Shown piece after piece: positions 47 through 49,492 of a stretch of 64,000 bases of DNA. Each line of letters opens with the position of its first letter. Positions within the stretch are counted from its first letter, which is position 1. A model generated the notes under the pieces. That model was not told where the DNA came from, searched no databases, and saw only the letters and a list, made by a program, of their open reading frames with translations. The stretch lies in the NCBI GenBank assembly GCA_032622095.1, contig CP136061.1, positions 36,523,797 to 36,587,796 on the forward strand. The letters run 5' to 3'. Source of the DNA: Siphonodentalium dalli. Taxonomy: Eukaryota > Mollusca > Scaphopoda > Gadilida > Siphonodentaliidae. A program made the position numbers and the translations under genes.

Positions 47-210
47 TATATAGAGGATATGAAATGAGTGTTTCTCGCATATGATATTTATGAAACGAGT
101 CTAAGAATTTTCAGTTTTCTCGAGCCTCTGGCGAGAGAAAACTGAAAATTCGTGACGAGTTTCATAAATATCATATGAGAGAAACACGAATTACATATTC
201 TATTTATCAT
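47..210 (+). repeat. Long hairpin repeat, family HP, copy 1
   Basis: Two arms of about 57-60 bp (68-124 and 131-187) are reverse complements with only a few mismatches, around a short loop containing GAGCCTC. The left end carries TATATAGAGGAT. The right end runs through ATTCTATTTATCATATGA. Three other copies (15363, 26222, 48656) share these ends and this layout but have different stem sequences. It is non-coding and looks like a small non-autonomous foldback element. No target duplication was identified. Confidence 0.8.
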
Positions 211-1240
211 ATGACACCTATAAATTGATTATGATGTCCAAAACGCACACAACTCACTAAATAGCTTTTTGACATCGGCAGCAAAAGGTTAATGTGAATT
301 CACTTCATTGCACCGGAAGCCCAATTACACCTGGTGAACTAGCAGAAATAATATGCACACGAAGATAAGTGCGCTATTCTGTTCTCAGTTTGTGACATTA
401 TATCGTATGTTTATTAGATAAATACGAATTACATATTCTATTTATCGTATAACAATGTCCAAAACTATATATTTCAAGATTATAATTGCAAGAATTTCGG
501 AATCGCGTTGATTGACGAGCTCGAATTTGACCTGCATTTAGTTAGAGATGCGGCTCGGCTCAGGCTGCCATTCAGCCAATCAGAACACACTTTTGGTCAA
601 CAAACCAATCAAATTATCGGAAGGTGATATGAACTAGTAGTTCATATGAAATTGATTTATGACATACTTTCCAACGTAAATAATGATTGAGTCATATGAT
701 AAAAAACATTACCATCCAAAATATCACCAGGTTATGCATTGTTCACGCACTGGGAAATTTGCCTGTAACACACAATGCATATAAAACGCATCTGATCACA
801 GCTAATTATGTGAGAAGTAAAAACACTGCAGATCCACCAGTAGCGACGCAATACCACTGCATGTAAATAGCATGTAATTATCTCGCAATAAGCAATCACA
901 CAGGCATCTGAAGGCAAATGTCAGTAGCACGGTACTGCTAGCACCGTTACATGTGGATCTACTTACATTTAACTGCACATGTCGTTATTTTGGGAAAAGA
1001 TGCATTTTATATGCATGTTTTCGTCATTTTCTGGCACCATATTGTATTCTATGACGAAGTGCCTGCTGACAATACCGTGCAAACTTCCCAGTGTATGTAC
1101 GTACTACGTACCCTAATGGGATTCAGCTACGACCTCTTCTTTTCATAATTCCACCCCCTCTCTCACTCTATGAAAAAGCCAAATAATGGAAACAGATGAA
1201 GTAACACATTTGGGGATACCTGAAAAGTCCCGTTTAATCA
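211..1240. other. No recognisable gene; one short HP-end echo
   Basis: The short ORFs here show no domain or motif I recognise. Bases 421-450 repeat the HP right end (TACATATTCTATTTATC type), followed by TGTCCAAAAC as at 236-245. This suggests a solo end or a nested fragment. The rest looks like unique AT-rich DNA. Confidence 0.5.
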
Positions 1241-1737
1241 GATCATGACACGAATCTCTACTCTACTCCACCAGTACAAAACCTTGGAACTTTTTGAAGT
1301 TTTGACAGGGAACCTTATAAATTCGAAAATATAGCACGGGGAATATATTTATTAGTGATTATCTGTTTCTTAATAATGTACTTCACTGTAGGCGAAGGTC
1401 CCAACTCGAAATTTCACGATTTAATTGAATTTGTGAGCGAGTTTGCTTCACGTCGCTTACAATTTTGGCATTTTCCTGGGTAATTAATTTGATGTTTATT
1501 GCGATATCGGCTCACAAAAGTCAGAAAAAAGCATGCAATTTTGAGTTGGGACATTCGCCTACAGTGAAGTACATTATTAAGGAAAGGGGATAACAACAAA
1601 GAAATATATTCCGGCGTTATGTTTTCGACTTACTTTATAAGGTTCCCTGTCAAAACTTCAAAAAGTTTCCAGGTTTTGTACTGGTGGAATATGATCTCTA
1701 CGGGCGTTAGCCAGATTAGAGATTCATGGCATGATCT
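1241..1737. repeat. Foldback repeat of about 500 bp
   Basis: Outer arms (1241-1337 and 1622-1737) share inverted tracts such as GGAACCTTATAA / TTATAAGGTTCC and a TTTGAAGTTTTGACAGGG block. Inner arms (1378-1412 and 1540-1574) share GTACTTCACTGTAGGCGAA in inverted orientation. The spacer is about 130 bp. The right arm resembles 44055-44185, so this is a dispersed repeat. It abuts the LINE relic on its right. Confidence 0.65.
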
Positions 1738-1789
1738 AACGTTTGCTGAGCTCTCTTTGATGTTGTCAAATTGCGGTGAGTATTCAGGG

Positions 1790-3055
1790 GGTTTGACACC
1801 TATTAGATATAAGAAAAGTTATGAGTTGTACGGTTCAGAAAAACTCACCGGTCTAAATTCAACAGTCTATAATCGCCTTGAAACAATTCATAGAATGTGT
1901 TTGAAGCACATCCAAGGTTTTCATGCAAGAACCAGCACTGATATGGCATTGGGTTTCATAGGAATGTCACCACTGCGTGCTTACATTGAACGTCGAGTGT
2001 TATCACTATTATGTGCATTATGTAATGTCTCTCCTTATAAGAGAGTGAATGAAGTATTTATCTGTCGTCTAATGGATGCATTGTCTGGTCTTACTTCTTC
2101 CCAATCGTTTTTCAACAATGATTTGCATGTTTCGAATCAGCGTAATTTGACAGAACATATTATTTCTGTTATTGGCACGTCGACCTTTATGAATAAGTCA
2201 ATGTGGAAAGAACTTATTAAAGTTTCAGAAGTATCCAATCAACGCGACTGGGATAATATAGTATCATCGGACACCGAATGTTCGCGTTGTTTTGCGATCC
2301 ATTAAGCGCCTGTTCTCTCTATAATATATGGCGCATTTGTCATAAGCATCCACGCAATAAACATAAATATGTGCTTGTTGCGCAACTTATATGTTCACTT
2401 ACTCAATGCAATAAATGTGTTGTGATCATATCAGATCTAGCGGAGCTTGTGGAATCATGCAGATTTCTCATATCTATTCGAAACGATATATGGTATGGTA
2501 TCACAAATATATTCGGAATTTCATTTTATCATGTACTGGACAACACGAACACGGAGCAAATTATTCGTGTGTTTTTGGGTCATATTCCGCCCACATTAGA
2601 ACCAATTGTCGAAGACAAGCTTGAATATGTGCGTTATTAACGCGTGTCAGGATTTATATGTCAAAATGTAACATTCAATATCTGCCGCATTCTCCGCTGT
2701 TATGATCGAAGGTCCATCCGCCATATATGCATATATAAATGTATCAACATTTTAGTGGAATCTGGTTTGCTAGTCCAGCCCGAGTCTCCCGGAACACTGA
2801 ATGGTTTGGGGCACTTTAGACCGCAATACTTGTATGCAGTCCTGTGGCTTGCGCAATCCCCAGACTTCTAGTCTTCCTGGTGTTACTCCGGGGGGGGGTT
2901 GCATGCCAGGATTATAATATGTATCACAGAATCATGAATACGAATTAATTTTCATTTCATTGCATGTTATTCTGTAAATATTTATCGCTTTTTCCCTTTA
3001 TGTTTTTGTTCAGATATACTCTCCTGAATTGGAGGAAATAAAGATATATAATTGG
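1790..3055 (+). mobile_element. LINE relic: C-terminal end of a reverse-transcriptase ORF plus 3' UTR
   Basis: Two overlapping plus-strand reading frames (to 2305, then 2278-2640) fit one protein broken by a single frameshift in the overlap. The first holds a segment I recognise from LINE ORF2 C-termini: YGSEKLTG, a leucine-rich LETIHRMCLKHIQGF stretch, RTSTDMALG and AYIERR. The second carries a decayed cysteine-rich stretch (CNKC ... ESCRFL) where a zinc knuckle would lie. After the stop at 2638-2640 comes an AT-rich 3' region ending in a GGAGGAAATAAAG-type tail near 3040-3055. The RT catalytic core is absent, so this is a 5'-truncated dead copy. The clade (CR1/L2 or relative) is uncertain. 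Confidence 0.65.
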
Positions 3056-3520
3056 TTTCCCCTACGACCTCTTTCTTTTCCTAATTCCACCCACACCCTC
3101 TCATTCTTTCTTTCTCTCTCTCTCTCTCTCTCTCTTTCGCGCTATGGTCCTTAATTGGTTTTTATAATTCTACTCGCACCCTCTCACTATTTCTCTCTCA
3201 CTCTGTATCATGATTTCTCTCTCACTCGCTGGTCTGCTGTGAGCATTGTGATGCTCGTTTTCTTTTCCCAGTAAGAACATAACGGTTAATCGCTCTTAAT
3301 ATCCCCTATTATCATGCTTATTAAGGCGACAAATTGAAACCATGCTACTTGGGGCAATTATTCTCTTGTCAATCGCTGACAAAAGATACAGTTTCAATCA
3401 TTATAGTGACAATTTTGCGATGGGAAGCAACCAATGCTATCTTACTGTGCACGGGACAACACATGACAGATTCGCAAATAACACATCACAATACCATTTA
3501 CAGAAAATCGAAAATCCGTT
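3056..3520. other. CT-rich low complexity and unassigned DNA
   Basis: A (TC)n microsatellite lies at about 3100-3135, and a second CTCTCTCACTC-type stretch at 3180-3225. No gene is recognised. Two small overlapping ORFs at 3334-3539 have no recognisable content. Confidence 0.6.
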
Positions 3521-5585
3521 AAAAAGTCTTGAAGTATGAGGTGCCCCGGGGTTATATGATGAAGCTATCAGGCTATTTCAGGATAATTTCAATCTGTCAC
3601 GCCCATGCCGCCTGATTTTTCTCACCGATTAAAATATTGTTTCCTGGTTGTCGATGTACACCCGATTGGTTTTCATCGTTAATAGCATGTTGGCGCACCA
3701 AGCACGGAATTGACTCCTTACTTCCACCATATTGCAAGTCCATATGCTAATACATTACGTTTTTGTGACAAAACCGTTTTATAGCACCGTTATTGCTGTC
3801 GAATGTAGAAATTAGTTTCGTTGTCTTAAAGGGGCCCAATGCACTCGCAGTGGGTGAACGTATGAAATTATATAAATCTGTAAAAGCATCACCACAAATA
3901 CGAAATAAAACACACTGTATTCTTAGATTAATAATTGATAGCTGTCCAATTTCGAGTGTTGAAACTATTGTTATGTAAACAAAATTGTGTCAGTGATGTG
4001 TCAACAAACGTTACTAATCTCGTTGTTAGATACAATATTTTAGTCTAAATATAATTTTCACAATATTGTTTTATGCTTTAACATTTTCCAATAGTTCTAT
4101 CGAGTCTTTATTAAAAAAAACGTTATTTCTACTTGGACTTTTACCATGACAATAATGTTTACATAACAATAGTTTTGAAATAATGAAAAGAACTTTAACA
4201 TGTACATGTTGATAATAGTTGTTTTACAGACTTGTATACAAATGTATGTTAAGAAGCATGAACCCACGTCGAAGGTCTTCAGTTGCTTTAAAAAGACATG
4301 AAGTATGAGGAGCCCCGGGGTTATATGGTGAAGCTATCAGGATATTTCATGATCATGTTAATCTGTGACGCCCATGCCGTCTGATTGTTCTCACCGATTA
4401 AAATAGGTATTTTCTAGTTGTCGATGGACGCCCAATTGGTATGCTATAAGTCATTGAAATGCGTTGGTTAATACCATATTGGCGTACTAAGTATGGAATT
4501 AACTCCTTACTTACACTGTAATGCAAGACCGTATGTCAATTCGTTACGCTTTATGACAAAATCGCTTTATATCACCGTTGTTATTGTGGAATGTAGAAAT
4601 TAGTTTCGTTGTCTTAAAGGGACTCAATGCACTCGCATGGTCTATACCATATTGGCGTACTAAGTATGGAATTGACTCCTTACTTACACTGTAATGCAAT
4701 ACCGTATGCCAATTCGTTACGCTTTATGACAAAATCGCTTTATATCACCGTTGTTATTGTGGAATGTAGAAATTAGTTTCGTTGTCTTAAAGGGACTCAA
4801 TGCACTCGCACTGGGTGAACGTATGAAATTATATAAGTCTGTAAAAGTACCGCCACAAATACGAAATAGAAACACTTTGATCTTAGATTAATAAGCAATA
4901 GTTGTCCAATTTCGAGTGTTGAAACTATTGTTATGTAAACAAAACGGTGTCAGTGATGTGTCAACAAACGTTACTAATCGCGTTGTTAGATACAATATTT
5001 TAGTCTAAATATAATTTTCACAATATTGTTTTATGCTTTAACATTTTCCAATATTTACCATCGAGTCTTTATTAAAAAACCTTTGGTATCTAGTTGGGCT
5101 TTCACTGTGACAATAATGTTTACATAACAATAGATTTGAAATAATGAAAAGAACAAAGTCGGTTTACTTTAACATGTTGATAATAGTTGTTTTACAGACT
5201 TTAATGCAAGACCGTATGCCAATTCGTTACGCTTTATGACAAAATCGCTTTATATCACCGTTGTTATTGTGGAATGTAGAAATTAGTTTCGTTGTCTTAA
5301 AGGGACTCAATGCACTCGCAGTGGGTAAATGTATAAAATTATAGAAGTCTGTAAAATAACCACCACCGAGATGAACATGGAGAAATAGAAACACTTTGTT
5401 CGTATATTAATAACTGATAGCTGTCGATTAACGAAATTCCGCGTGCTTTTCTCACCGATTAAACGTTTTTTTTCTGGTTGTCGATACACACTCGATTGTT
5501 TATCTAAATGCATTGTTGCGTTGGCACCTTATTTGCACTTTATCGCAACGGCATAACTTTGTATACAAAAATCGCATTCACCATG
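3521..5585 (+). repeat. Tandemly duplicated block, unit about 770 bp, with partial extra copies
   Basis: Unit A starts at 3521 and unit B at 4290; both begin with GAAGTATGAGG then GCCCCGGGGTTATATG. Unit B contains an extra internal duplication of 173 bp (ACCATATTGGCGTACTAAG at 4473 and again at 4646). A third partial copy of the middle section lies at 5202-5330. A more diverged piece (CTCACCGATTAAA, CTGGTTGTCGAT) lies at 5447-5580. The copies are clearly related but diverged. No coding content is recognised. Confidence 0.8.
3963..4174. mobile_element. Small TIR element inside duplicated unit A
   Basis: Exact 18-bp terminal inverted repeats AACTATTGTTATGTAAAC (3963-3980) and their complement (4157-4174) bound a 212-bp non-coding segment. 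TTGA flanks both sides, a possible 4-bp target duplication. The same element sits in unit B at 4923-5133 with a slightly mutated right end, so it inserted before the block duplicated. A related stretch occurs at 32146-32262. Its TGTTATGTAAACA core also resembles part of MITE-1. Confidence 0.6.
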
Positions 5586-5852
5586 TTGTGTCGTAGTATT
5601 AAAATAATACTTTCGTCTAAATTAAAGTGTCTCAACATCTAGCCTTAAATTAAACATTACTACATGGAGTAAGTAAATACATATTCTTGCTGGCACTTTC
5701 GGTCACCTGACCTTTATCAACATTGTCAATAGACATGTATTGTTTCCGTCGATGTGATTGTAAATGTTCACTATATGTTCATGTGGCTAAACCCCAGAAA
5801 GATTCTTTATTTCCACAACTCATGAATCACGGACATCTCTGGATTTCAGTTA

Positions 5853-5937
5853 AAATTCAAATTATTTATTCTCAATTACCACGAATATGGTTTATATGAG
5901 ACAATAATTTTATAATGAGAATAAATAATTTGAACTA
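5853..5937. repeat. Short hairpin
   Basis: ATTCAAATTATTTATTCTCA near 5853 pairs with TGAGAATAAATAATTTGAA near 5917. The loop is about 45 bp. The surrounding 5586-6080 shows no other feature. Confidence 0.6.
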
Positions 5938-6079
5938 AAGTTGGCTTTACTCAAATTGCAGCTATAAAAGTTTAATCGCTATGGATCAACAGTTCTGTAA
6001 GTACACGAAAGTCTTGTTCTCGGAATATGTATACATTGGAAAGACTTATCAATATAATAGAAATAATCCCCCCTCAGAT

Positions 6080-6640
6080 AGAAACCAGTACATTGGCTTC
6101 CCGTTTCCGAGCGGATTAAGTTGAAGATGATCGCAATGACTTACAAGTCACCACAATACATCAATTCAATTCAATTCAATTATTTATTCACTCAAATCGT
6201 CAAATATGACACAATAGAGCTCGGTGGAATACAGTGCATATAATTTCTGTGCAAATTACAAAAGTGGTGCGCATTGAAAATTACACATATTATAATAATA
6301 CAGTTGATTGAGAACAGCCCATGGTTGTGCAAATGTCGGATTTTAATGTATTACGTATATAGTATGCCTCAGGAGTTTTTGAATAAAATCAGGACCTCAG
6401 TTATAAGGTATGTGCACATGTACCAGCCAGGCATCTCAGATCCGATGACTTAATGCTCTTAGCTAACCCAAAGGTAGGTAGTAGTTTCGGTGAAAGTCGT
6501 TTTCCATAGCCGGACCGACTCTCTGGAATGCTCTACCGTTGACCATCCGCAACTTCCTGGATATGATGAATTCAAAGGTCTTTGGAAAACTCATTTATTC
6601 ACGGAACATTATTTTGAACATGTGAGCGTGGCAATAATGA
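6080..6640 (+). mobile_element. CR1/L2-like LINE C-terminal relic, split by an insertion
   Basis: Bases 6090-6155 read as HWLPVSERIKLKMIAMTYK, a well-known segment near the C-terminus of CR1/L2-type reverse transcriptases. The match resumes after an insertion at about 6405 with PARHLRSDDLMLLANPK, then a frame-disrupted DRLSGMLYR-like stretch where LWNALP is usual, and ends near KTHLF (about 6600). The catalytic core is absent. The fragment is old: it has several frame breaks and a nested LINE tail. Confidence 0.65.
6161..6402 (-). mobile_element. LINE or SINE 3' tail with AATTG repeats, nested
   Basis: Read on the minus strand, the segment ends ...GACGATTTGAGTGAATAAAT followed by about four AATTG units (6162-6182). 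This is the simple-repeat tail typical of a target-primed LINE or SINE insertion. It lies exactly inside the CR1/L2-like relic, so it is the younger insertion. No coding sequence remains in its roughly 240 bp. Confidence 0.6.
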
Positions 6641-6984
6641 ACTAGCTTTCAGTGCGGGCTACATAATTATCACATGCTTGAACTGTAAATTTGTGAATTT
6701 ATTTTAATGTTGTCAGGTGCCCTGAAACCTTAGTGGTATGTGTGCTATTCCAGACACATGTGATATGATATAAGTAATATTTTTCTTCAATGTGTAAAAC
6801 AACAGAATGTGATGTGTCTTACTGATGGTGTCACGAGCGTTCGCCTCACTTAGTTAACGAAAGTTTAAGTCAGTTAATAAATTGCTATGAATTGCGTAGG
6901 TCTTCTGTGGCACAGAAAGTCGGCATATATGACATTATTTAATGTTATTAACGGCATATATTGATGAAAGGAACGCATCAGAAA

Positions 6985-7175
6985 CAATTTAATAAGCATT
7001 TGAATGCTTTGAGACATGGATGAGTGCAACATACACTCATGTGTTCTATAAATTAAACACGCAGCATGGTAATTATAATGAAAATGAATTTATGACTGGG
7101 GTAATATATATTAAATGAGTTATTCATCATATGAGATGGTCACATAAATGGCCGGATTTACTGTACAGTACCCCT
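6985..7175 (+). mobile_element. MITE-3, left-truncated copy
   Basis: This matches the internal and right-hand parts of the element at 54694-55038: CATGGATGAGTGCAA, GGTAATTATAATGAAAAT, and the end GTACAGTACCCCT. It ends at a TTAA (7176-7179). The left terminus is missing or too diverged to see. It is non-coding. Confidence 0.65.
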
Positions 7176-7179
7176 TTAA

Positions 7180-7690
7180 ATATGCATACAATTCAATCAT
7201 AATAGTGTATCAATATAAGCCCCCAATCTGTCGATGTCATTGATATAACAACACATACATGTAGAAGAATCCGTGCGACTGTAGCACCTCATCCGAGTCT
7301 ACCCACATATATTCTATAGCTAGATATAGAATATTTCTGGTGAATACAATGCCCCTTGTTTTGTCTTCAGTGACGTAATCTCCATGAGAGATATGGGTGT
7401 GACTAAACACCGCCCGGACCCCCATATAGACTATATGAGTGATTTTAAGGCCAATATAAGTGCAGGGGTGTCATGGAAACCCAATCAGGGTCGCTCTTAA
7501 CCCTCAAAATGCCGGCATCGGCGAAAATTTTCGCCGCGAAATGAAGCTAACAGCCCGAGAGATATGTTGTAAAATGGAGAACAAACTGTATATGTCTTCT
7601 TTCACATTGTTATTGTCATGATTGGTGCATATTGGCAGTGAAGTAGACGGTGTATGTACATGTGGGGGACCAACCAAGCTTCCTTTTTTT
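7180..7690. other. No gene; possible solo TTAA element end
   Basis: TTAACCCTCAAAATGCCGGC near 7498 resembles a piggyBac-like terminus next to a TTAA. It is followed by the short palindrome GGCGAAAATTTTCGCC. No matching right end is visible. The rest is unassigned. Confidence 0.3.
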
Positions 7691-7695
7691 AATGA

Positions 7696-10135: not shown

Positions 10136-10164
10136 CATTGATCTGTTGCACTGTTGACTAATCC

Positions 10165-15362: not shown

Positions 15363-15515
15363 TATATAGAGGATATATGAGTCCCCAGTTAATAGCGGAA
15401 TTTACAAAACAAGTCCAGTAAATTAGGAAAGGCTCGGTCCAGACCAAATATACGAACGAGTTTTGTAAATTTCGCTATGAACTTGGGACGAGTTGTAGAT
15501 TCTATTTATTACATG
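15363..15515 (+). repeat. Long hairpin repeat, family HP, copy 2
   Basis: The left end is TATATAGAGGAT and the right end TAGATTCTATTTATTACATG then ATCCAAAAC, as in copy 1. The stem at 15381-15410 pairs with 15460-15488. The inner segment TACAAAAC pairs with GTTTTGTA, where copy 1 has TATGAAAC with GTTTCATA. The loop carries GGCTCGG. Confidence 0.8.
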
Positions 15516-16940
15516 ATCCAAAACATCGACAAATACATACTTAAGTCAACAAATGGGACGCGAAGCTAACATTCTTCTATATGGCATGCAGTGTCGTTTC
15601 ACGTAACTATGTGTTGTTTGTCCGCGTAAAGAAATATAGTCCCAGATAGATAAAGACTCTTTGGCATATTTAATGGCGTATATTTAATGACATAACTTTT
15701 CAAACTCTGCATCCATTTGTTTGAAAAATATTGGAATCCATAGTAATTTGAGACGTATCGTACGGAGTGTAAACAGACGACAAACCGGAAGTCAAATGTC
15801 ACCTGGCACTATTTCCTGTTATTAAACGAACGTTTAATATCAAACGAACGTTTAATATCACAATTTATAGAATGGGTTTATTGAATGGAATAAGGGTAGG
15901 ATCATGTAATAAGTATACTTCTATAGTTATATACCACAGCATCCTTTTTGTAATACATAATGTATGTAATGTATTAACTTGGATGAGAATAAAGCATTGA
16001 TTGAAAATTTGGGAACGCAACTATGGACGCGCTTTATAAGAAGAGGTAATTGGAATGGTTGCTAGGATAACTAAAAATAAATATAACTAAAAATAAACCA
16101 GTGTTAAACTTCCTCTTTTGAAAGTAGATATTGGCCACCAAAAGCTCATATTAATGGGCTCGTCACGCCGATGTGATAATTTTCTGAGGTTGAATGGTGT
16201 CAAATCTGACAGCGCATCTTTAAAGTATGCGTCCACGGGAAAGTTTTTCGCATATTTATCAACAATATTTTTGTCCCAGTAACCGGGACATAGTATGATA
16301 GAAGTGAGCGTTGCTAAGTAAAATGTGAGTATTCACACTTAATTATGAAACATGACCAAAACATCAAGTGTCATCACGATCGATGTATTGTAAAATATGC
16401 CCATTATTTGTGCTAAGTAATTTTAGTGGTATTTATATGGCAACCAGCTCCGGATTGCAAAACCGCAATTCGAAATTTATCATGATAATGTAAAAAAAAT
16501 AGCGAACAAGTGCAGTGGTCTAAATTGACACCAAATTTTTGAAATTCCCTATATAAATGTAATTTTCACCTTACCATGCAATTAAAACTACTTGCATTCA
16601 CTGTCATTCGCATCACACATTCGTAGCTAACAAGTATGACAGGGCCTTCTGTGTGCCTTTAACAATCTTACTGTCACACCAAAACACATTTGCCTCTAGT
16701 ATGACGGTGAGAGAAGATGAATGTAACAACACGTTTGCCCAAAATCGACTGTAAAGAGCGATTAATGTTTAATCGATTTACCAATGACTGTGAAAGAACG
16801 GACGCTTTGTGTGTTACTCTTTGAAATCGGGTACTAGGAAATAACAGCTAAAACGGACAATACTCACTAGGACGTCCAAATAATGTCTACTTAATGTTGA
16901 AAGGGAATACGATATGTCACTCTATACACATGGTACTCAT
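15516..16940. other. No gene; one duplicated small palindrome
   Basis: Near 15822-15862 there are two tandem copies of an 18-bp near-palindrome (AAACGAACGTTTAATATC). The rest is unassigned, with scattered AAAGAGCG motifs (for example 16754). Confidence 0.45.
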
Positions 16941-21443: not shown

Positions 21444-21774
21444 CCCTTTACCCAACAGAAGGGCCCTGTGCCAATGCATTCTCTTATATATGCGAGTCGA
21501 CCATAGGTCGCCTCGCATATATAAGAGAATGCATTGGCTTAACACATTTTATTTAGGCCAATGCATTCTCTTATATATGCGAGGCGACCTATGGTCGACT
21601 CGCATATATAAGAGAATGCATTGGCACATGGCATAACTGTAGCTATCAGAATGTGGTCAATGAGCCGGTTCCAATGATATCCATATTTGTATGGTTTTAT
21701 TGAGACAGACCCAAGATAATTTAGGCTGTTGCAGCTTTATTTGGCCGGTTTTGGCCGGTTTGTTGGGTAAAGGG
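21444..21774. mobile_element. TTAA-flanked element carrying the double-hairpin module
   Basis: TTAA lies at 21440-21443 and 21775-21778. The termini are CCCTTTACCCAACA and its complement. Inside are two palindromic hairpins of about 70 bp in inverted orientation (21474-21540 and 21557-21630). Each is CCAATGCATTCTCTTATATA-type DNA folding on itself around GTCGACCATAGGTCG. The right TTAA is also the left TTAA of MITE-1 copy D. At 331 bp it is non-coding and piggyBac-like in target choice. Confidence 0.8.
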
Positions 21775-23689: not shown

Positions 23690-24148
23690 ATATGTGACCC
23701 GCCATATCAAATCCAGTCGTAAGTCGGGATTTGTTTTACCCTGTGCCAATGCATTCTCTTATATATGCGAGTCGACCATAGGTCGCCTCGCATATATAAG
23801 AGAATGCATTGGCCTAAATTGTTTTATCATTTAAAAAAAAAATGTTTCTTACAATTTTTAGAACATAAAATAAAAAACATCCATTACACTGCAGGGAACC
23901 CCACACATATAGAAGCATATAGAAGAGTGTCGTCTGCTCATGTTTGTCTGGGGCTCTGTATGGGTGAATTATAAAATTGTTAAAGAATGCAAGAAAAAAT
24001 TATTAAAATTATAAAAAATTGTTAGGCCAATGCATTCTCTTATATATGCGAGGCGACCTATGGTCGACTCGCATATATAAGAGAATGCATTGGCACAGGG
24101 TAAAAAAAATCCCGATTTACGACTGGATTTGATATGGCGGGTCACATA
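23690..24148. mobile_element. Double-hairpin element with long TIRs
   Basis: Outer inverted repeats of about 50 bp (ATATGTGACCCGCCATATCA ... GGGATTT, and its complement at 24103-24148) enclose the module CCCTGTGCCAATGCATT ... GGCACAGGG. The module holds hairpins at 23743-23813 and 24024-24094, each a near-perfect palindrome of about 70 bp, with an AT-rich spacer of ATTGTTAAAGAATG-like repeats. The total inverted-repeat arm is about 125 bp. No TTAA target is visible, unlike its relatives. Confidence 0.8.
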
Positions 24149-26221: not shown

Positions 26222-26370
26222 TTATATGACATCACTGTATATAATGTACATAAATTATATATTTTTTAAATGATATTAATGAAACTCGAGTTTTGCCGAG
26301 CCTCAGGCAATACCTTATACTCGTTTTGTTAATATAATATGAGACAAACACTCATTTCTTGTCATCTATA
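26222..26370 (-). repeat. Long hairpin repeat, family HP, copy 3
   Basis: Best read on the minus strand: ATATAGATGACA, GAAATGAGTGTTT (as in copy 1), a stem ATTAACAAAACGAG pairing imperfectly with CTCGAGTTTCATTAAT, and a loop containing GAGGCTCGGC. It is more eroded than the other copies. Confidence 0.65.
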
Positions 26371-39120: not shown

Positions 39121-39126
39121 TATATA

Positions 39127-39285
39127 GGTTATCACCACCATGTGTGTTCCCGAGATCAGTATTCAAGTCGAGCTGCCTTCTCTGGGCAGTCTATCGACGA
39201 GTCCGTAGGACGAGTCGCTAGACAGCCCAGAGAAGGCAGCGAGACTTGAATGCGGATCTCGGAAACACACTGGGTGGTGATAACC
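39127..39285. repeat. Near-perfect palindrome with 78-bp arms and 3-bp loop
   Basis: Arms 39127-39204 and 39208-39285 are reverse complements apart from about ten mismatches. The borders are GGTTATCACCACC and GGTGGTGATAACC. It is GC-richer than its surroundings. The centre is GAGTCC-GTA-GGACGAG. It is non-coding and its function is unknown. It lies about 140 bp downstream of the end of the Crypton-like gene relic. Confidence 0.9.
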
Positions 39286-39421
39286 AATTTATCTTACAAT
39301 TCGACTCATAAAAATGCAATAAAACTGAATGTAAAACAGGAACTATTTTATTACGCGCAACACAAAACGTACACAATTCTCAGCACACGACATCGTGAGA
39401 AGTCAATTTCTGAGAACGTAA

Positions 39422-41161
39422 CTATTCAACTTCGCTTTGGCTGGAATCAGATTCAATGATGAGGCGACGATATTTCCGTTTCGAATGTTCGACATAATTG
39501 TCACTTTTCACAGGATAATTGTAATATTTTATGGTGCAATCTCCTTGGATGGTAATAGAGTTGGAGAGAGGCATTGCAGGAGATGACTGTCCATTCACAG
39601 TTTTAATGAATTTCGAAGTTTCCGACACTTCAACAATCGATTTCTGACTCGCACTCTCCGTGTCACGTGTATCAACAATTCTAGTTGGAGCGGAATTCGA
39701 ATTATCAATGGGATCAGAGGTTGATGTTCGTTTCGGTGCTATGCAAAGAATATCCGACATTTGCCGTTGCATTTCCACTGACGCAACAGAATAATTATTG
39801 ATACTGGCAATAATTATGTGTCCCGAAAGCTGTGCTATTGTGTTCGGAGTAATGTCATTATGAAGGAGTCGAGTACAGGTTATTTTCCGGACGCACGCAG
39901 TTATTGGTCTTTCTACCAGGAAGTTCACCTTTCTCTGCCATGTTCTTCATGATTTTGGCTAAGGCGTGTTCACCCATAGGCTGAGCCTTATACCAGATAT
40001 GTGAATCTGGTTTTCGATTATGATTCACTTGAATGTAGAATGGTGAATCATGCTGCAAAGTGTTCAATGGACGCTTTGGTGCAAAAACCATGTAGGCTGC
40101 AACTGGACATTCTGTAGCTGGAACTCCAGGGATGGCAAATGCTTTCGGAATGAATGCTCGGTGGTGAGTATTGGAACTTTCTCCTGTTCGGGTTTTTGTC
40201 GACCTTTCATTATGTTTTAAATATTCAATTCCATTTGCGTCCTTTTCAAGCACAATGTCATTCCATCTTAAACTATGCTGTTCCTTTCCAGTGCGCATGC
40301 CGAACAATTTCACATTGTTATACCACATTAGATTCAGCAATCCGTATGGGCAGTCAACGCTTAACACACCTCTTTCCCTAAGAAGAACTTCCTCACTTTC
40401 TGTTATTGGTTCAGCTGCATTTGGCCGATTACCTTTTCCAGCTTCTTTTAACTGCTTCCTCTTACTTGCCAATACTGTCCTAGAGCTTTCGAATTCTCGG
40501 TCCATGCATATTAGATATGGATACTTCTCCCTCAAATATCTATCGATACCGCGGTGGTAGGATGTCAATGAGTCCGGCTCATAATCAGATCCATCTGCTT
40601 TCCTGACAGACAGTATGAAGGACCCTATATAATTGTCCATGCGAATTGGATCAATCAACTCAATAGCCCGAAATTCATTCCTCTGGGACAGAAATCTTGT
40701 AACGCCATTATTACAACTTGGGTTTTTTTCACAGTGTTTTCATTCTGCATACTAGATACAAAGTCATCTTTGTCAGATTCCTGAACATTAACAAATGTTG
40801 GTGCTTTCGATGTTGCCATTGTTGGTCACTGCTGAGCACTTACTTCTGTCAGTGGTGATGTAACAACAGTAGTATTAGCAGTTGAAGTACTTGCAGTTGT
40901 ATTGTTAATGTTGTTATTTTCACTATTCTTCCTTCTCCATGTCCATAATGGAACTGAGGACCCATAATCAGAAACACTGGCTGAGATAGTGGCATCTGCA
41001 GGCAACATTTGATAATTAGTACACTGACTTTCAACTAAAACATTTCTTTCACTAGTTTTAGGACTGTTTTATTTGTCGATTCTGCTCACAACATCATGCA
41101 AATCGTCATCTTCTCGAAATAGCTGCATTAGTTCGTCGTATGATACCTTGATAAATTCCAT
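39422..41161 (-). pseudogene. Crypton-like tyrosine recombinase (DUF3504-type), broken
   Basis: Minus-strand reading starts plausibly at ATG 41161 (MEFIKVSYDELMQLF) and ends at the TAG at 39422. The best-preserved stretch (to 40658, 266 residues) has the core-binding region IGSFILSVRKADGS and the catalytic-domain start with box-I arginine in FGMRTGKEQHSLRW (Arg near residue 122). Next come a KHNERSTKTRTGE block and TNNCVRK where the family usually has a His-x-x-Arg motif (Asn replaces His). The second frame continues with LSGH and NNYS, matching the family's late His and nucleophile Tyr. Damage: in-frame stops at 41069 and 40826, a frameshift near 40690 and another near 39890. Family knowledge: these are DNA-transposon recombinases, sometimes domesticated. 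I infer a dead transposon or dead derivative. Confidence 0.75.
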
Positions 41162-41171
41162 ATTGTTTTAA

Positions 41172-42589
41172 ATTTACGTACATGTACATTCGCAAGAATC
41201 GATCGATTTCCGTTGTGTACTCTGCAGAAATTGCAAATGCAGACGACACTTTAAAAGCATCTAAATCACCCATTAAAACTAATTCATGGGAAATGCAATG
41301 AAATTACGGACTTTTCGTAAGTAATCTCTCTTGAATCCTTAACAAAATATAATTTTATTTCAATTTCCCTTCTGTATTTTATTGAATAAAAATTGCCGTC
41401 AGCAGCTTCTGATCAAGACCGTACTGAATTACGGAGAATTCCCTACTTCGCTTATAATATAAATTGTCGAAATAGTCCGTATTCGTGCGCGCTCGCCGCG
41501 CTGTAAACAATGTGTTGCTTTTTTAATTCCCAAACATTTTGCGGTGTGTTATTTAGTTTTTTCGGTCCTGTCCTGTCCTGTCCTCTCTCCACATTCTTTC
41601 CACTTTCTTAACACAAGCATTTATTATGTTACGTTCGTAGCGAACGTTGATGTTATTTTATGACTTTCAATTGGTTATTTAGACGCTTTGTTTTGAAAAC
41701 AAGCCAGTTTCAAAACGCACGTGCACTCGTTGTTGCCATCCACGATATCCTTGTTGCCATCCAGGATACAAGATCGGAAACCGCCTAGGCGTTTTGGCGT
41801 GTATTTGAGGAAATATAGCTAAATTGTAAGATAAGATCCATTATCTGCTTATTTCAAAATCAAACAATCACATTATAGGTCGATTATATGTGCATATTTG
41901 CGTGAGGATATGTTGAACAGTCATAAGATAACAGATATGAGAATTATTTCGCCAACGGGAATTACTTTAAATAATTTAAACGGACATGGCTAATTCGTGA
42001 AATGTTTATGGATAATGGCAGATACTTTGATCTGATCATTTTCGCAGAATTGATCGAGAATATTAAACAGTAAACATTCGACCTATCTGATAAAGGCCAT
42101 TCTCAAAAATGGACTGTATACATGCAAACATAGTGCTAATTCTATAATGTCAGGACATGTCTGCAGTCTGTATGACCCTTCTTGAATATGTATGGCCAAT
42201 ATTTCATATAAGTGGATCCTTATAATGCACGACGTGATCATTTAAAAAAAGTTGTGATGGTGTCCAGTTCCTTTGAGACTGATCTTGACCTTTGTCCCAT
42301 TGGCCATGCTTTGACATCAATCCATTCAATGTGTCCCAACACACTATATTTATCACCATCTCGCGAAACGTGTTTAACAGTATTTGACAATATTGACACA
42401 GAGGCCGGATTCGTCATCTCAATTTAACCTGGTTTAAACCCCCATTGGCGGTCCAACCAAACTGAGATTAATGGGGGTGTTTTTGTCGTTCAGTTGCTAA
42501 CTAATTGCCAACTCCAGTTCGGTGATGTGAGCATGCAGACGAACTACAGTTACCAATCGGACCAAAAGGCAGGCCGATAAAACGCTTAT
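41172..42589. other. No gene; small repeats
   Basis: The region upstream of the recombinase relic contains a (CTGTC)n run at 41570-41590, an R4-B fragment at 41835-41925 (CATTATCTGCTTATTTCAAA, GAGGATATGTTGA) and a hairpin ACCCCCATT/AATGGGGGT at 42437-42480. No clear promoter element is identified. Confidence 0.45.
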
Positions 42590-43400
42590 TGACTCGCCAT
42601 AAATTATCGTGAACGGGCTTTATTACCCCACGTGGGCCCGGGTAGAATAGGCATACCACCCCTCGCATACCACCCCACTGCGAGGGGTAAGAATCCCCTA
42701 ATGTGGCACCTTCTTTCCCGTTGGGTGAATCCCGTGTTGTGTGGTGTAGGAGTCCTGGAGGTATCATAGGGCCGTCGTATTATGTGAATCGGCGACTTAG
42801 CTCATGGTCCTCTTTTGTCCTAATTTCTGCAAGATGGGTGGTTGAGTTGACCCGATTTAAGAGGGCTAGTCATGCCTCTTCGATGTTTGAGATAAAACAT
42901 TTGCCATCTGTTATATTATATTTCTAGTTGTGTCTTCTGTTTTCATGTCTGTTTCTTTCGTGTCATGCCTGTTAGCATTTCGTCTTCATCACTGTCAAAT
43001 AATGTTTCAATTTTGTACTGTTCACGCCTGTCTCACTGTCTCAAATATGATAAATACCTTATCACTGCAAAATGTTATTTTAAAAACTATTTTACATATT
43101 TAGATGTGGATGTTTGGTAATTTCGTATTCTTTATTTGTTATTTTTTATATCTATTCTTATACGTTTTATAGCATAATTGCACACTTGTCAGTTCTTGAA
43201 TTTATATTCATGAGTCCAAGTGGAAACATTTCTCTTGGGTGCTTTCATTTATACATAGATCATCGTTGCATTGTTTTAATCTAATCCACTGTCTGATTTA
43301 TCTACACAGTTGCTTCGCTACGATAATTTGTTATACCTGATTCTGTTCTTGGTCGTGATATGGCTTAACGACTAAAACGACGTTAAACCCTCAATCAATC
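42590..43400 (+). repeat. SINE- or LINE-end-like repeat with AATC tail
   Basis: A GC-richer head (CCCCACTGCGAGGGGTAAG, CCTAATGTGGCACC) shared with the minus-strand copy at 25430-25745. The end is CGACGTTAAACCCTCAATCA then ATC. GACGTTAAACCC plus an AATC-type tail is a SINE/LINE terminus I associate with molluscan repeats. At over 800 bp it may be two adjacent repeats. Confidence 0.5.
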
Positions 43401-44228
43401 ATGGGATTTATTTATCGAGATACAAGTATCGCTCATGGGCCACTAATCCGATCTTATTCTGGGTTTAAATTAATCTGGCAAAGGGTATATCTCAACATGA
43501 GTTTCACGTGCTGTTTGTCACTTTGTGATATATTTTCTGCAAGATGCTTTACTCGAAAATACACCATTTGGTGCGTTTACATGTATATCTGTTTACATAA
43601 GAGTATAGGATCTGCCCATCTATCTGTCTGCAACTTTTGGACGCAACTTCTGGACCCTGGACCGATTTCAACCAAATTAGGTGTGGTGCCTCGGATGTTA
43701 TACCGGCGTCAGGTTTTCAAAATTGTGATTTAAAAATAAACATTTAATTAAAAAATGAAAATATAGTGTTAAATTGAGTAAGGAGTTGAATCTAAGAATA
43801 AACAAAATTTTATATTAAAATTAATTTGTTTGTTCTAAATTTAATTAAATGTGTGTTGTTTTAATTAAACTTTTCTAATGATAAAAATGTGCGCAAATGT
43901 GCCACAAGCCCCTCTGTCGGTTCTAAAGAATCCACAAATTAGTCAATCCTGGATCAAGAGGTCAGTCAAGTAAAGGCAACTTGCTTATGTGAGTGCACAC
44001 CAGAAGCGGCATCTGAACTGTTGGAAGTGGGCAACCAGAGGGACAGGTTTTAATAAAGAAATATATTACATGCGTTGCTTTTTTAATGTTATACATTTAT
44101 CGTCATTCAAAAAGTTCCCAGGCTTTCAACTGATGGAATATTGTGAGAATTTATGGGCGTAACCAGAGCAGAGCTTGGTGGTATGATCTAAATGAGTTGT
44201 CAAATTTGACACGTACAGAACTATTATT
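43401..44228. other. No gene recognised
   Basis: A TTCAACCAAATTAGGTGTG phrase near 43668 resembles parts of other dispersed repeats. 44055-44185 resembles 1600-1745 (AAAGTTCCCAGGCTTTC ... TGGAATAT ... ATGGGCGTAACCAG). Confidence 0.4.
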
Positions 44229-44626
44229 ATACGCCCTTTTTGAAAAAAGGTCGTATTATGTTATCAGTCTGTCCGTCCGTCTGTGTAGCCGTCCGTCCGT
44301 CAGTTAATATTTTTGTTTCCGATCGATAACTCCAGTTTGGATTATTTTATCTGAACCAAAGTTGGTATGTGTATTTCCCAGCTAGAGACACAGGCCAAGT
44401 TCGAATATGGGTTCTGTCCAATTTTTTGGACATGAGTTACGGCCCTTTTTCAACTTAGAATTTGACCGTCTAATTATTTTTACAAGAGTTTCGGACTTTT
44501 TTCGACTTAGAATTTGACCGCATTTTGGCACTGAAATTAGGGGTATATCAGATTTTCTTCAAATGTAAGCTCAAAGTATTATTTTATTTTGCGGTAGTAC
44601 AATTCGAAATGGTTAAAGGGCGTATT
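44229..44626. mobile_element. MITE-like repeat with short TIRs
   Basis: Ends ATACGCCCTTT (44229) and AAAGGGCGTAT (to 44626) are inverted. Inside are CGTATTATGTTATCAGTCTG, repeated CCGTCCGTCCG, and two similar AACTTAGAATTTGACCG stretches. A partial relative lies at 12400-12640. It is non-coding. Confidence 0.55.
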
Positions 44627-45224
44627 TTGCCACGCCCTAGCGATGCTCTTGTTTTAGAATTGCAAACTATGTATATAGCATATCTGATCATGTAGTAGCA
44701 TCGTTCTGGTGTCAGAATTAAAACCTTGAACCCTTCAAATGAATTCGCACAAAACCCCAGTATTTGTAATTACCACAAGCCAAAAAAACCCACAATAGTT
44801 GTAAACATTATATTGAAGCTCTGTGTTTGAGCTCTGTTTGAAGTGCAAGCAATTTATGAAACGCACGTGAAATGCTGTTTCCTGCAGATTGTAATCCCAC
44901 ATCCAGATAGGCCGCAGAGGTCAGGATAAAATGGCCATCCATGAGAAGCTTCAGACATCCTTGTCCTTTAGGGTCATTGTCCATTTGGAAAGTACTTGAG
45001 AAACGGAAAATCATTGGGAGCAGATTATCAAACAGCACTTAGAGCTCTATAGCGAAAATCAATGAACTGTGTTTCGCATGCTTACAGCAGCGTTGTGCCA
45101 TGACCGTTCACAGTCCCACTACCATTGTGTGTGTGTGTGTGGGGGGGGGGTGGGGTATTCTTAAAATGCCGGTAAATGTTGTCCAGAAAGTTGTCTATGT
45201 CCATAAATGCTTTTATTTCAGCAA
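44627..45224. other. No recognised gene; one unassigned minus-strand ORF and a GT/G run
   Basis: A minus-strand frame (about 45053 to 44808) encodes FRFSSTFQMDNDPKGQG and LLMDGHFILTSAAYLD, which looks less AT-biased than neighbours but matches no family I know. (GT)n followed by about ten G lies at 45128-45152. Confidence 0.3.
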
Positions 45225-45228
45225 TTAA

Positions 45229-45513
45229 CCCTTTCATGACGGGAGCTTACTGAAATTTTGCAAAGACCCTGTGCCAACGAATTATCTTATATATGCGAGT
45301 CGACCACAGGTCTCCTCGCGTATATAAGAGAATGGATTGGCCTCACAAATTTTATATCATTTTTAATAATAGTTAAAGAATGTAACAAATAATGATAAAA
45401 AAGGTGATAAAGAATGTACGAAAAAATTATCAAAAAGGATAAAAAAAATTGTTAATAAAATGTAAGAACAATTGTTAAAACATTGTTAGGCCAATGCATT
45501 CTCTTACATAAAC
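45229..45513 (+). mobile_element. Double-hairpin TTAA element, right-truncated copy
   Basis: TTAA 45225-45228, then CCCTTTCATGACGGGAGC (the clearest version of this terminus), CCCTGTGCCAACG, a complete hairpin at 45273-45343 and the AT-rich ATTGTTAAAGAATG spacer. The second hairpin breaks off after GGCCAATGCATTCTCTTACA at about 45513. Confidence 0.75.
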
Positions 45514-46140
45514 CAATCTTAGATGCTGACTATTGCTGAGTTCCAGTCTATGACTAAAACAATATATAGGTGTGAACCAGAAATAAAGTTGTTTCATCTG
45601 CTGAGTAATTAGCTGAAAGCGAAGTTTCTTCCGGTTGGTTCACCAGTGCTTCACGTGTAACTTTGTCACTGTGTTGCCAGTCCTTCTCGCGATCAATCAC
45701 CACTATGATATTGATCATGACATGGAATAAATTGTTAGCATTAACACTGCCATTTTTCTTCATTGGCTGGAGGTTTATGAAATCGAAATAGCTTTACTCT
45801 TAGACATATTTTCATTAAGGACACGTGACCGCCAAATATTATAGATCCCTATGAATTGTGGGTATTACCCAAATGGTGGGTATTCCCCAATAAACAATGA
45901 CGTCATTTACTGCTGTTATAAAATATGGCGATAAACCTGTGACATCTGAGACTTTAGTGATTGCGCAATTGTTTCGTATATTAGGACATGCTCTGATAAC
46001 ATCGGCATAAATCAAAGCGGAGTTATGACTCTTAGTGCATATACAGCGTGAATTTACTTGGATTATCGTGATTTTTGTTGCGGGAATAGACAAGCTTCGA
46101 AATATGAGACATGGATATTTTAAAATGTGCACACTTTATT
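45514..46140. other. No recognisable feature
   Basis: Two small minus-strand ORFs (45554-45763 and 45839-46132) have no recognisable domain. Confidence 0.4.
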
Positions 46141-46295
46141 TAAGGAATAATTTCGGTTTCCTAATGTAATTACACTCTAAAGGCATATGCCGAATCACAA
46201 CCCTATAAATAGCTTCGCGATTTATAAGAGTTTGTGATTCGGCATATGTCTTTAGACTGTGTGATTACATTAGGAAACCGAGATTATTTCTTATA
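46141..46295. repeat. Near-perfect palindrome with arms of about 75 bp
   Basis: TAAGGAATAATTTCGGTTTC on the left pairs with GAAACCGAGATTATTTCTTA on the right. The centre is AGCTTCGCGA. Half-like relatives occur at 48300-48375 and 49507-49562, inside introns of the second recombinase relic. So it is a dispersed foldback family. Confidence 0.85.
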
Positions 46296-46843
46296 ATTAT
46301 GCCATGTATTGTTAAATATTGATTTAAAAAAGAAAACATTGCCATTTACAAGACGGTTGAAACAGGGAACTATATTTTGTCAAATAACGGGCCGAAACAG
46401 ACTCTGTCCGAATAGGAACTGTCACGACTCGGGCCGAAGGCAGCTCGTCCCATTTCCGTCCGTATAATATCGATCAATCGATCGAGTTGGTTTTTCCCCG
46501 AAGCGTATGTCAAGGACGGAGCAGAAACATGGCCGAAAATGATTCGTAAATTAATAAACTTTCGACGAAATATAACATTATCAGCAGAATATTGGAAGAG
46601 GAACACATTTTAGTTTCCATGTTGACTGGGACTCATTAGCGTGCGATAATCAGTAAGTTTAGTGAACATTTTCTTACAGGAATTATCCTATATCTGTCGG
46701 CATTCAGTCAATTTTGTTTCTAGATTTTTTCACTCACGACAATCACTTGAGATTTTACCGAGAACAATAAGTTTTCAGAAGAATAAACCATCATGATATT
46801 AGTATATATTAGTAAGATCATTTATTTTTCAAAAACTTATTTC
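46296..46843. other. No recognisable feature
   Basis: The minus-strand ORF at 46370-46606 is unrecognised. Confidence 0.4.
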
Positions 46844-46847
46844 TTAA

Positions 46848-47341
46848 AGGTACGGTTGGCCTTGGCGGTGGGTATCCTGTGAAAATATTTCCACCCGTCA
46901 AAAACCGCCACAAACAGAAAGAACATCAAAATGTAGACAGACTTTGTCCGTATACAAACAAGAAATATCGCATAAACAGTATGTTATTGTCATATTTTTT
47001 ACCATTGTTATGTAAACAAAGGCATAGAAAGTTACTTTTCTGGTATTTGTTTATATTATGATGGTAAACATAAAGAGCGTTCTTTGTTGGTGAATTCCTG
47101 ATATGGCACTAATAAAGAGCGTTTATGCCATTTGTGTGTGCTTAGCCAGTAGCATTGTGCTGTCTTCTGTAACACAATCAGGCTCTTGCTTAGGTAAAAT
47201 ATAGTAGGTCTTTATGATAACATGCTGTTTACGCGATGGCCATGATATATATGAACGAAACTGTATGCGTTTTAATGTTTTTCTGTTTACGGCGTTTGGA
47301 ACAAATATTAATATTTTCGACAATTAAGGCCGCACGTGCCT
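46848..47341 (+). mobile_element. MITE-1 copy A
   Basis: The element is exactly 494 bp with TTAA on both sides (46844-46847 and 47342-47345). The ends are AGGTACGGTTGGCCTTGG and the complement of AGGCACGTGCGGCCTTAA. It is almost identical to copy B in the opposite orientation; I found one clear base difference. The ORFs inside are shared by the copies and are not genes. Confidence 0.93.
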
Positions 47342-47583
47342 TTAATCATGGGTAAAATTTCAAGTGATTGTTCAAAAACTAGTTTACTTTCATCATAGGA
47401 TATTTTGTAAATGTACCGATTGTAGATGTATGCTGAGTCAGTAAAGCTCAAGTTTTTTTTGTGGTAATTGTTTAATTACGTTGAAATATTATTAACTAAT
47501 CAAGATCAAATCTATAATTTTAAAGTTCATTCTCATCACCGTGGTTGTTCATCGTCATGTTTGTGTCATTAAATAAATGTGTT

Positions 47584-49492
47584 CTATGAAATATATAAAT
47601 TACAGTTATTGAAAACAGGATTGGATAACATTCCCACAGATGCCTTGCTAAATGGATATACCACAATAGAGTCATTACTGTTTGAAGTTGTTTCCTTCAA
47701 AGTTGCGGAGCTATTTGTTTCTTTCTGTATTACTGTCGGATTCTGGATCTCTTCGGTTTCTTTTGGTTTTTTCATTTCAATACGGTCCTGCATAACAGTG
47801 CTAGATAGAGTAGAGTTTAACAGGCGTTTTTGTTCCTCTGAACATCCTCGATAATAACTTCTGACAGATGCTTCGTTTCTGTGTCCAGACATGAACATAA
47901 TATGTCGTGCCACAAGTCCAGAATTATTCAGCGAATGTATTGCCGTTGCTCGTAGACAATGAGCAGTATATCTCTAAGAACAATTGCCTGCTTGCATATG
48001 TTCGTCATGTAATTGATGAATGTCATTTTCACTAAGGATTTTGTGCAGTACCAGTATTCAGATTTCTCTGGATTAACCAATGCGTCTTTGTCACTCTGGT
48101 TGAATAATGACGATGCTTTTTCGAAATCGACGACTGCATTGAATAGTTCATGGTACCATTCTGTAAAATAAAATTAACAAAATATAAGTACCGGTCGGTA
48201 TGAAGCATAAATGAGTATATAATACATGTTTATGCAGAATATAATATAAAATGCATGATGTCATAAATTTACGTAAAACATACATTTTATTCCTAATTAT
48301 TTTAATGTAATTACACAGTTTAAAGACATTTAGTTTAACTGACATTTGCCTAATATAAACTTATAAATCGCAAAGCGAAATTTGAAGGCTGATTGCACTG
48401 ATTAGACTGGTAGTGATGTTGTTTCTTAAATCCTTACTATTAACTATAACTTATAAGATAGCCTATTAGTGTATTGTATCACATAATTTGCCCATAAAAG
48501 CAGTTTCATAATTATCGATAAGAGACACGTTTAATATCAGCGCGTGCGATGAGGTCGCACCGTTCTTCAAATGACTTGCGATCGCTGCGGTTTTTATCGT
48601 TGTTTTCGATGGATATTTCGCATTGCTTCGCGTTTATTTGATCATGTGATAAAAAGTATCTCACACTCGTCCTATTTTATACGTAACTTATCAACCTCGT
48701 CCACTAAATTCTATTTGAGCCTCGGTAAACCTCGGCTCAAATTGAATTTAGTGAACTCGGTTGATAAATTCCGTATACAATAGAAACTCATGTGAGATCC
48801 TCTATATACAACATTTATCATTTAAATAAAATTTATTAGATGAAATTATTATTCATAATTATCAGATTAATACGCACCTTCAAATACTTTCAATTCCCAT
48901 TGTTTTTCGTCGCATTTGATCGGTGATGACTTTCAAGTTCCTTCATGTCATCTTCTGTAATTTCTTGAATCGAGTATTCTTGGTGCTGTTCCTGGTTGTT
49001 CCAATTGAACTTGAAGTCAACAATGAATTGGAATGATCAGTTGACATCCGGGACATGGAAGTACAATATTCAATTTAACTTATTACATCCATGGGATTTA
49101 TGTTTTTGATATCTCCATTACTATATTTGTACTAAGCTTCCTTAAGATTGGTGCATAACAAAAACTTTTTGGATGGATTTCATTACATAACTCCGCAAAC
49201 ATTGGCACTGATTTATGACAGATGCAAATTTTAGAACAGGGCATTGTTTGTTTTCACTTAAATCCTTGTTACATTTTGTTTTCCAATAGCGATTCTCACT
49301 TATTATAATAAAGCGTTGAACTTACCCACTTATAGATTTGTCCACCTCCATTGGCACAATCGTTCCATCGCTATTACCTTCACTGGTTTCAGTTGTTTCT
49401 GTTGGTCCACTCTTGTCGGTACTGGAAGTACTTGTAGTATCATATTGGCATTCTCGTATTCCTTCATTATTAAGTTGATTAATAGTAGCACT
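47584..49492 (-). pseudogene. Second Crypton-like recombinase relic, intron-containing and internally deleted
   Basis: Three exon-like blocks on the minus strand. (1) 49490-49329: acid- and Ser/Thr-rich; preceded by a pyrimidine-rich TTTTTCATTTTAG acceptor and followed by a GTAAGT donor. (2) About 49000-48883: EITEDDMKELESHH and, one frame off, KQWELKVFE, then a GTGCGT donor. (3) From 48163, after acceptor TTTATTTTACAG: EWYHELFNAVVDFE. Joining (2) to (3) gives an in-frame KVFE-EWYH junction as in DUF3504 core-binding regions. Block 3 then jumps to the catalytic C-terminus: HCLRATAIHSLNNSG (His-x-x-Arg), FMSGHRNEASVRSYYRG (His and Tyr). The box-I region is missing, there is a frameshift near 48030 and a stop near 47973, so it is not functional as read. 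A further open block (50167-49958) upstream may be an earlier exon. Confidence 0.65.
48656..48808 (-). repeat. Long hairpin repeat, family HP, copy 4
   Basis: The best-preserved copy: arms of about 68 bp (48658-48725 and 48730-48797) around loop TAAA. On the minus strand it begins TATATAGAGGATCTCACATG. The inner stem TATCAACC pairs with GGTTGATA, and the loop flanks are GAGCCGAGG / CCTCGGCTC. It lies in the apparent intron between blocks 2 and 3 of the second recombinase relic. Confidence 0.85.

Follow-up and report, generated by a model that had tools for sequence, protein, structure and literature searches.

Hairpins at the 5′ end of Crypton-type transposons

The stretch of DNA analyzed here, hereafter the window, comprises 64,000 bp of contig C1 (C1:36523797-36587796) in the 2.23-Gb, nine-contig genome assembly of the scaphopod Siphonodentalium dalli. 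A reading made from its sequence only had described a dispersed family of hairpins in four copies. This family is real: copies 1, 2 and 4 lie where they had been placed, and for copies 1 and 4 the fold is much more stable than those of shuffled sequences (z of -13 as DNA and -15 as RNA). With near certainty, the scattered hairpins are not stand-alone foldbacks and instead constitute the 5′ end of a family of tyrosine-recombinase (Crypton-type) transposons. Four complete elements are present within the window, three of them short and non-autonomous and one carrying a DUF3504 recombinase (Table 1). About this identity there is hardly any doubt, whereas we infer a mechanism that works through a folded single strand: with a probability of about two in three, the hairpins are the attachment site of the DUF3504 recombinase transposons, and of the gene-less elements mobilized with them, and are used as folded DNA in the manner of an integron attC site. 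The six recombinase-bearing families are designated A-F, and the short gene-less families include f1, f2, f4, f5 and f6.

Table 1. Hairpins, elements and recombinase frames in the window (positions are those of the window).
Feature	Position	Strand	Details
Complete non-autonomous element, family f1, 653 bp, ATAG...ATAA	50..702	+	3′ end TCATATGATAA; full-length relatives ~98% identity
Hairpin of f1	50..202	+	tandem G·A loops 66-67/188-189, 97-98/157-158, 122-123/133-134
f1 post-hairpin motif TTTATCATATGA	203..214	+	inverted copy of 3′ end (691-702)
Complete non-autonomous element, family f2, 547 bp	15366..15912	+	motif 15505-15518; 3′ end GGATCATGTAATAA 15899-15912
Hairpin of f2	15366-15504	+	within element 15366..15912
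Relic of f1-like hairpin in older repeat	26222..26370	-	3′ arm degraded, without TATAGAGGAT end
Crypton-type transposon, family A, 2.7 kb	39124..41834	+	ends ATAGGTTATCACC ... AATTGTAAGATAA
Terminal hairpin of family A Crypton	39124..39287	+	tandem G·A loops TCGAGC/GCGAGA and ACGAGT/ACGAGT
Family A post-hairpin motif TTTATCTTACAATT	39288..39301	+	inverted copy of 3′ end (41822-41834)
DUF3504 tyrosine recombinase reading frames, frame-broken copy	39422..40739	-	Pfam DUF3504 E 8.9e-23
Complete non-autonomous element, family f4, 330 bp	48476..48805	-	motif TTTATCACATGATC 48640-48653; 3′ end ATTATGTGATA
Hairpin of f4	48654-48805	-	within element 48476..48805

Every element follows one plan: ATAG, a hairpin of ~150-185 nt, the motif TTATN8 and, at the far end, N8ATAA. 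When copies at different loci were compared, the left boundary was sharp, with conservation beginning only at ATAGAGGAT, and the alignment continued past the hairpin up to another sharp boundary, ...ATAA. The copies as first delimited cover no more than the 5′ part of elements of ~330-650 bp that have a defined 3′ end. TTATN8 directly follows each hairpin and its inverted copy forms the 3′ end of the element, as seen in f1 (TTATCATATGAC and GTCATATGATAA) and, with one mismatch, in f4 (TTATCACATGAT and ATTATGTGATAA). This inverted-motif rule predicted where the f2 element of the window should end, and its 3′ end was found there; the f4 monomer length of 330 bp agrees with that of the array units described below. 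Insertion occurs at RTAT^A without target duplication; two empty sites, provided by nested insertions in a tandem repeat (L035) and in an f1 element (L038), show zero duplication, with 1-2 bp ambiguous.

Several known element types were considered and rejected on this anatomy. A foldback MITE is excluded by the lack of a target-site duplication and by the presence of the hairpin on one side only, and a Helitron or HINE by the lack of TC...CTRR ends and of a 3′ hairpin, the ends here being ATAG and ATAA with the hairpin at the ATAG end. Nothing in the sequence points to a Replitron or HUH transposon, which was otherwise pursued by literature search only.

Genome-wide, the strict 5′-arm pattern occurs at 5443 places, compared to 4 for the reversed pattern; a few of the 5443 are a tandem satellite with the same words. 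A 29-bp tandem satellite, TATAGAGGATAACGAGTTATGCTGGGATA, at L099 (C1:20211515-20212256) and at C1:25801095-25801749, looks derived from the 5′ arm of the f5 hairpin. The end TATAGAGGAT, first attributed to all four copies, is shared by copies 1, 2 and 4. Copy 3 retains the 5′ arm and the GAGGCTC apex, has lost most of its 3′ arm together with this end, and was rejected as a full family member: it is a degraded relic whose relatives form a separate, older repeat. This repeat (family 3, L049-L068) has an f1-like hairpin inside, and many of its copies cluster on C7 at 18-30 Mb.

Recombinase-bearing families carry the same terminal hairpin

The family A hairpin in the window adjoins a DUF3504 tyrosine recombinase and has G·A loops as in the short elements; no reverse transcriptase was found within this element. 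More than 130 scored recombinase matches, many of them intact, are present in the genome. Families A, B, C and D have identical anatomy, with the hairpin at the same end. Families E and F showed no hairpin inside 1.3 kb and were extended as a test, upon which both proved to carry a hairpin at the expected end. The terminal hairpin is accordingly found in 6/6 recombinase families examined, the inverted 3′-end motif is present in the five that were read at the 3′ end (A-E), and in every one of the six the recombinase gene runs antisense to the hairpin's G·A strand. One family A copy (L069) has no hairpin inside 1.3 kb and is probably truncated. Copies L108 (family D) and L114 (family F) have lost the hairpin segment that separates the apical loops, as is typical of deletions in palindromes.

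Pfam DUF3504 matched the recombinases of families D (E 1.5e-32) and B (E 3.8e-23), and families B, C and D retain intact catalytic R-H-R-Y residues (HSLR/HTVR, SGHK and NNY motifs). Within the stretches spanning these three elements, the recombinase is the only frame of 250 aa or more. Its closest solved relative is the DUF3504 protein QRICH1 (E 4e-13), and an IMG/VR scan with the recombinase of the window returned no viral relative. A second tyrosine recombinase fragment is located at 47584-47973 of the window (- strand; Phage_integrase, E 5e-4), without a recognized hairpin.

The gene-less elements retain only the hairpin and the end motifs, and these therefore act in cis. That the hairpin always occupies the same end, beside the recombination boundary, points to a DNA recombination site. 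One might instead suppose that the short elements owe their movement to some unrelated enzyme, such as an HUH nuclease of the Helitron or IS200 kind, and have the hairpin in common with the recombinase elements by chance or capture, as HUH systems too use hairpins and leave no duplication. We regard this as hardly credible: recombinase-bearing and short elements agree in target and loop positions as well as in their ATAG/ATAA ends and inverted N8 motif, the end motifs of f1 and B are one base apart, and the ends expected of a Helitron are missing.

Stems covary between families while tandem G·A loops are kept

The sequence-only reading had stated that both arms of the stem change together, and this is borne out. 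Across eight short subfamilies, 36/65 pairs show compensatory double changes and 91.4% of cells are paired, compared to 75.7% in shuffles and 33-43% when the arms are slid; 0/500 shuffles scored as high. Among the recombinase families, 37/66 pairs are compensated in C-F and 20/76 in B, and G·U cells number just 2 in each of these two sets. Within families, changes are mostly confined to one arm (f2, 111 single and 9 double; f1, 9 single and 0 double); from this tally we excluded 12 f4 “loop substitutions”, which comprise all 12 loop positions of one copy, attributed to L047. Independent mutation of the arms, which the sequence-only reading had set against covariation, therefore gave a split outcome, being the rule among dead copies within families, whereas the arms of active lineages change together between families. 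Since within-family decay is mostly single-armed and between-family change is paired, the covariation arose in lineages that were still mobile, and insertions decay freely.

The folds further reveal what is constant in these otherwise variable stems. In DNA folds of 11 representative hairpins, all 2x2 internal loops are GA/GA in the setting 5′-YGAG/CGAG; with DNA parameters, the B73 basal loop and the C apical loop count as parts of larger loops. In the short families the loops lie 17, 48-49 and 73-74 nt away from ATAG; for the recombinase families the distances are 43-49 and 70-80 nt. Columns C48-G51 and G109-G111 (CGAG/GAG) are invariant across 13 families, the stems otherwise being different. 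The conserved ATGAGT and ACGAG steps noticed in the sequence-only reading are the two sides of these tandem G·A internal loops. Families A-E and f6, as well as some f5 copies, have a GNA triloop (GCA or GTA) at the apex. Folded DNA is stabilized by GNA triloops and by tandem sheared G·A pairs.

As a cause of the covariation, the sequence-only reading had offered either copying of one arm from the other or selection on structure. If it were a neutral by-product of arm copying, by template switching or hairpin repair, no selection on the fold would be needed. Such copying does occur occasionally: in the f2 copies L021 and L027 the outer loop has been rewritten as the perfect complement of the opposite arm. 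The few paired double changes in f2 (7 of the 9 doubles, with ~2.4 doubles expected) and the near absence of G·U intermediates in young elements also agree with it. However, arm copying would erase the G·A loops, and these persist at the same places in all families; selection therefore keeps them. Moreover, the dead copies show mostly single-arm changes. Loop retention, which copying cannot explain, thus largely refutes a purely neutral origin, leaving it very improbable, and selection on the folded structure is supported.

The same structure could in principle serve as RNA, whether as a precursor of small RNAs, as a substrate for ADAR or Dicer, or as a structure in the 3′ UTR of the recombinase mRNA. 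The hairpin is indeed very stable as RNA, and tandem G·A loops are good RNA motifs as well. However, the gene-less elements, where only service in cis is possible, keep nothing else than the hairpin and end motifs, which makes an RNA role unlikely. In addition, the hairpin always sits beside the transposon boundary, in recombinase-bearing and gene-less elements alike; relative to the recombinase gene, the G·A strand is the antisense one in each of the six families; G·U cells make up <1% in young recombinase elements; the apex in most families is a GNA triloop of the kind preferred by DNA; and the window gave no Rfam match. The small-RNA or ADAR purpose proposed from the sequence finds no support here, and we consider a function as RNA improbable. 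The ATGAGT...ACGAG words recall a hammerhead, but this and other ribozymes were rejected, as the conserved core is absent and Rfam matched nothing.

Rejoined ends, head-to-tail arrays and a proposed mechanism

Joining the 3′ end of an element to its 5′ end in silico lengthened the hairpin by 12-16 bp and gained 9-17 kcal/mol in all seven families tested. The rejoined hairpin has a bulge of 1-3 nt, whose distance from the joint is three to seven bases except in family C, where it lies opposite the joint. An excised circle would thus be predicted to carry one long imperfect palindrome, made up of a box, unpaired bases, a variable stem with asymmetric loops, unpaired bases and a second box.

Such joints exist in the genome as head-to-tail arrays. 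The exact joint of TTATGTGATAA to ATAGAGGATCTCA, which belongs to one family, occurs 64 times and the f1 joint 9 times, compared to 0 for reversed controls. Unit length in the sequenced arrays is 330-331 bp. The first unit of array L119 is 97.9% identical to the units of L120, on another chromosome, and 93.6% identical to its own neighbor, while the first unit of L120 differs by ~12% from the other L120 units. Since units of mixed subfamilies stand side by side, at least part of array growth comes from different elements inserting at the boundary of a resident one. Rolling-circle concatemers were rejected as the sole source of arrays, given that a unit can resemble one at another locus more closely than it resembles others of its own array. 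A dimer could nevertheless be the origin of units 2 and 3 of L119, which are 99.1% alike.

We propose that the recombinase would join both ends of an element, giving a circle whose joint rebuilds a long, near-perfect hairpin with two inverted 12-nt recognition boxes at its base and a small bulge by the crossover. The enzyme would then act on a single folded strand, preferably the G·A strand, which the tandem sheared G·A pairs and the GNA apical loop would both stabilize and mark off from its complement. The recombination partner of the folded site would be either a double-stranded RTAT^A target or the boundary of an element already in place. As pairing rather than sequence would count, stems could drift by compensatory changes, helped by occasional arm copying, while the loops stayed fixed. 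Taken as a whole, an animal integron-like system, in which Crypton recombinases act on a folded G·A hairpin strand and mobilize thousands of gene-less cassettes, with arrays formed by boundary insertion, is in our estimate evenly poised between true and false.

The strongest rival is a role in double-stranded DNA, in which the hairpin forms a cruciform, or serves the excised circle as a replication origin or terminator, while recombination takes place at a boundary site of the ordinary double-stranded kind; the fold would still be required, though not as a single-stranded substrate of the recombinase. The anatomy and the junction palindrome would fit equally well, and a circle is the textbook Crypton intermediate (PMC3212892). 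In linear DNA, however, the recognition box lies ~155 nt from the left (5′) boundary, and it meets that boundary only when the hairpin is folded out or extruded, which gives the fold a reason; nor was a duplicated crossover core of 6-8 bp seen. We judge the double-stranded role unlikely, although less so than the other alternatives.

Some points weigh against a folded single-strand attachment site. The circle, the single-stranded intermediate and the choice of strand are each proposed from sequence, and a cruciform in double-stranded DNA would require the identical sequence. As DNA, the two strands differ little in folding energy (0-8 kcal/mol), with the difference slightly reversed in the truncated F copy, and DNA energies alone do not prove a strand preference. 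A genome search found no exact junction for family C. Finally, the RYYYAAC/GTTRRRY boxes and single extrahelical bases of attC sites are absent, and the recombinase is far from integron integrases (IntI4 only at E 0.3).

The termini of Cryptons have been difficult to delimit. For six recombinase families, exact ends and a target can now be stated, along with nested empty sites, arrays and a structured attachment site, making the mechanism by which these transposons move directly testable. If a folded strand is indeed the substrate, structured single-strand recombination, as documented in bacterial integrons and in a handful of phages, would also exist in animals, and the stems would be a DNA case of classical covariation, with structure rather than sequence being selected in genomic DNA.

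Other repeats in the window

A second, nearly perfect palindrome family (GCCAATGCATTCTCTTATATATGCGAG...) occurs at 21470-21625, 23745-23813, 24026-24094 and 45273-45341; its 33-bp arms are of different sequence and lack tandem G·A loops. At 54684-55048 lies a long inverted repeat with 125-nt arms at 87%, within which a second inverted repeat is nested. A retrotransposon reverse transcriptase in two adjoining frames (57220-59244, - strand; RVT_1, E 1e-33) probably belongs to a non-LTR retrotransposon.

Comparison with known systems

By protein, the group belongs with the animal Cryptons (CryptonA), with which it shares a single tyrosine recombinase with R-H-R-Y residues and DUF3504 and QRICH1-like domains, abundant gene-less derivatives and the absence of target duplication. 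It differs from them in its long terminal hairpin and inverted end motif; the principal Crypton survey, by Kojima and Jurka, describes animal Cryptons as being without terminal repeats and mentions no hairpin or palindrome (PMC3212892). Full-text literature searches, with partial coverage of papers and without Repbase, likewise returned no hairpin described for Cryptons. The terminal direct repeats of 4-6 bp that typify fungal Cryptons are missing here, the two empty sites showing zero duplication.

Among other mobile elements, IS200/IS605 and REP elements resemble the present ones in having terminal imperfect hairpins, which in those systems act as single-stranded DNA as is proposed here, and in leaving no target duplication, but they are moved by HUH (Y1) transposases, none of which was found here. 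The strand-biased circularizing elements (SE) of Vibrio are comparable in their imperfect inverted end motifs and in having tyrosine recombinases that act on one strand (PMC9345347), as is proposed for the present ones; they are bacterial and lack a long hairpin. Foldback elements and MITEs are similarly short, abundant and palindromic with AT-rich targets, whereas the elements described here are asymmetric, with neither terminal inverted repeats at both ends nor a target-site duplication.

The closest likeness at the level of the site is to integrons. Like attC, the rejoined ends of seven families are predicted to form a folded imperfect palindrome with inverted boxes at its base, unpaired bases near the crossover, stem features that would distinguish the strands and a variable terminal stem (PMC2727003). 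Like a cassette, the integrated unit carries its hairpin at only one end, the opposite end having a single box, and head-to-tail arrays are found (PMC2727003). On the other hand, the boxes are N8ATAA/TTATN8 rather than the attC consensus, tandem G·A loops take the place of the single extrahelical bases of the L stem, the recombinase is of another subfamily, targets are dispersed RTAT^A sites in the genome, and the recombinase gene is mobile inside the cassette itself. Thus, by its site the element appears to work like an integron cassette without being one, as boxes, extrahelical bases and enzyme all differ.

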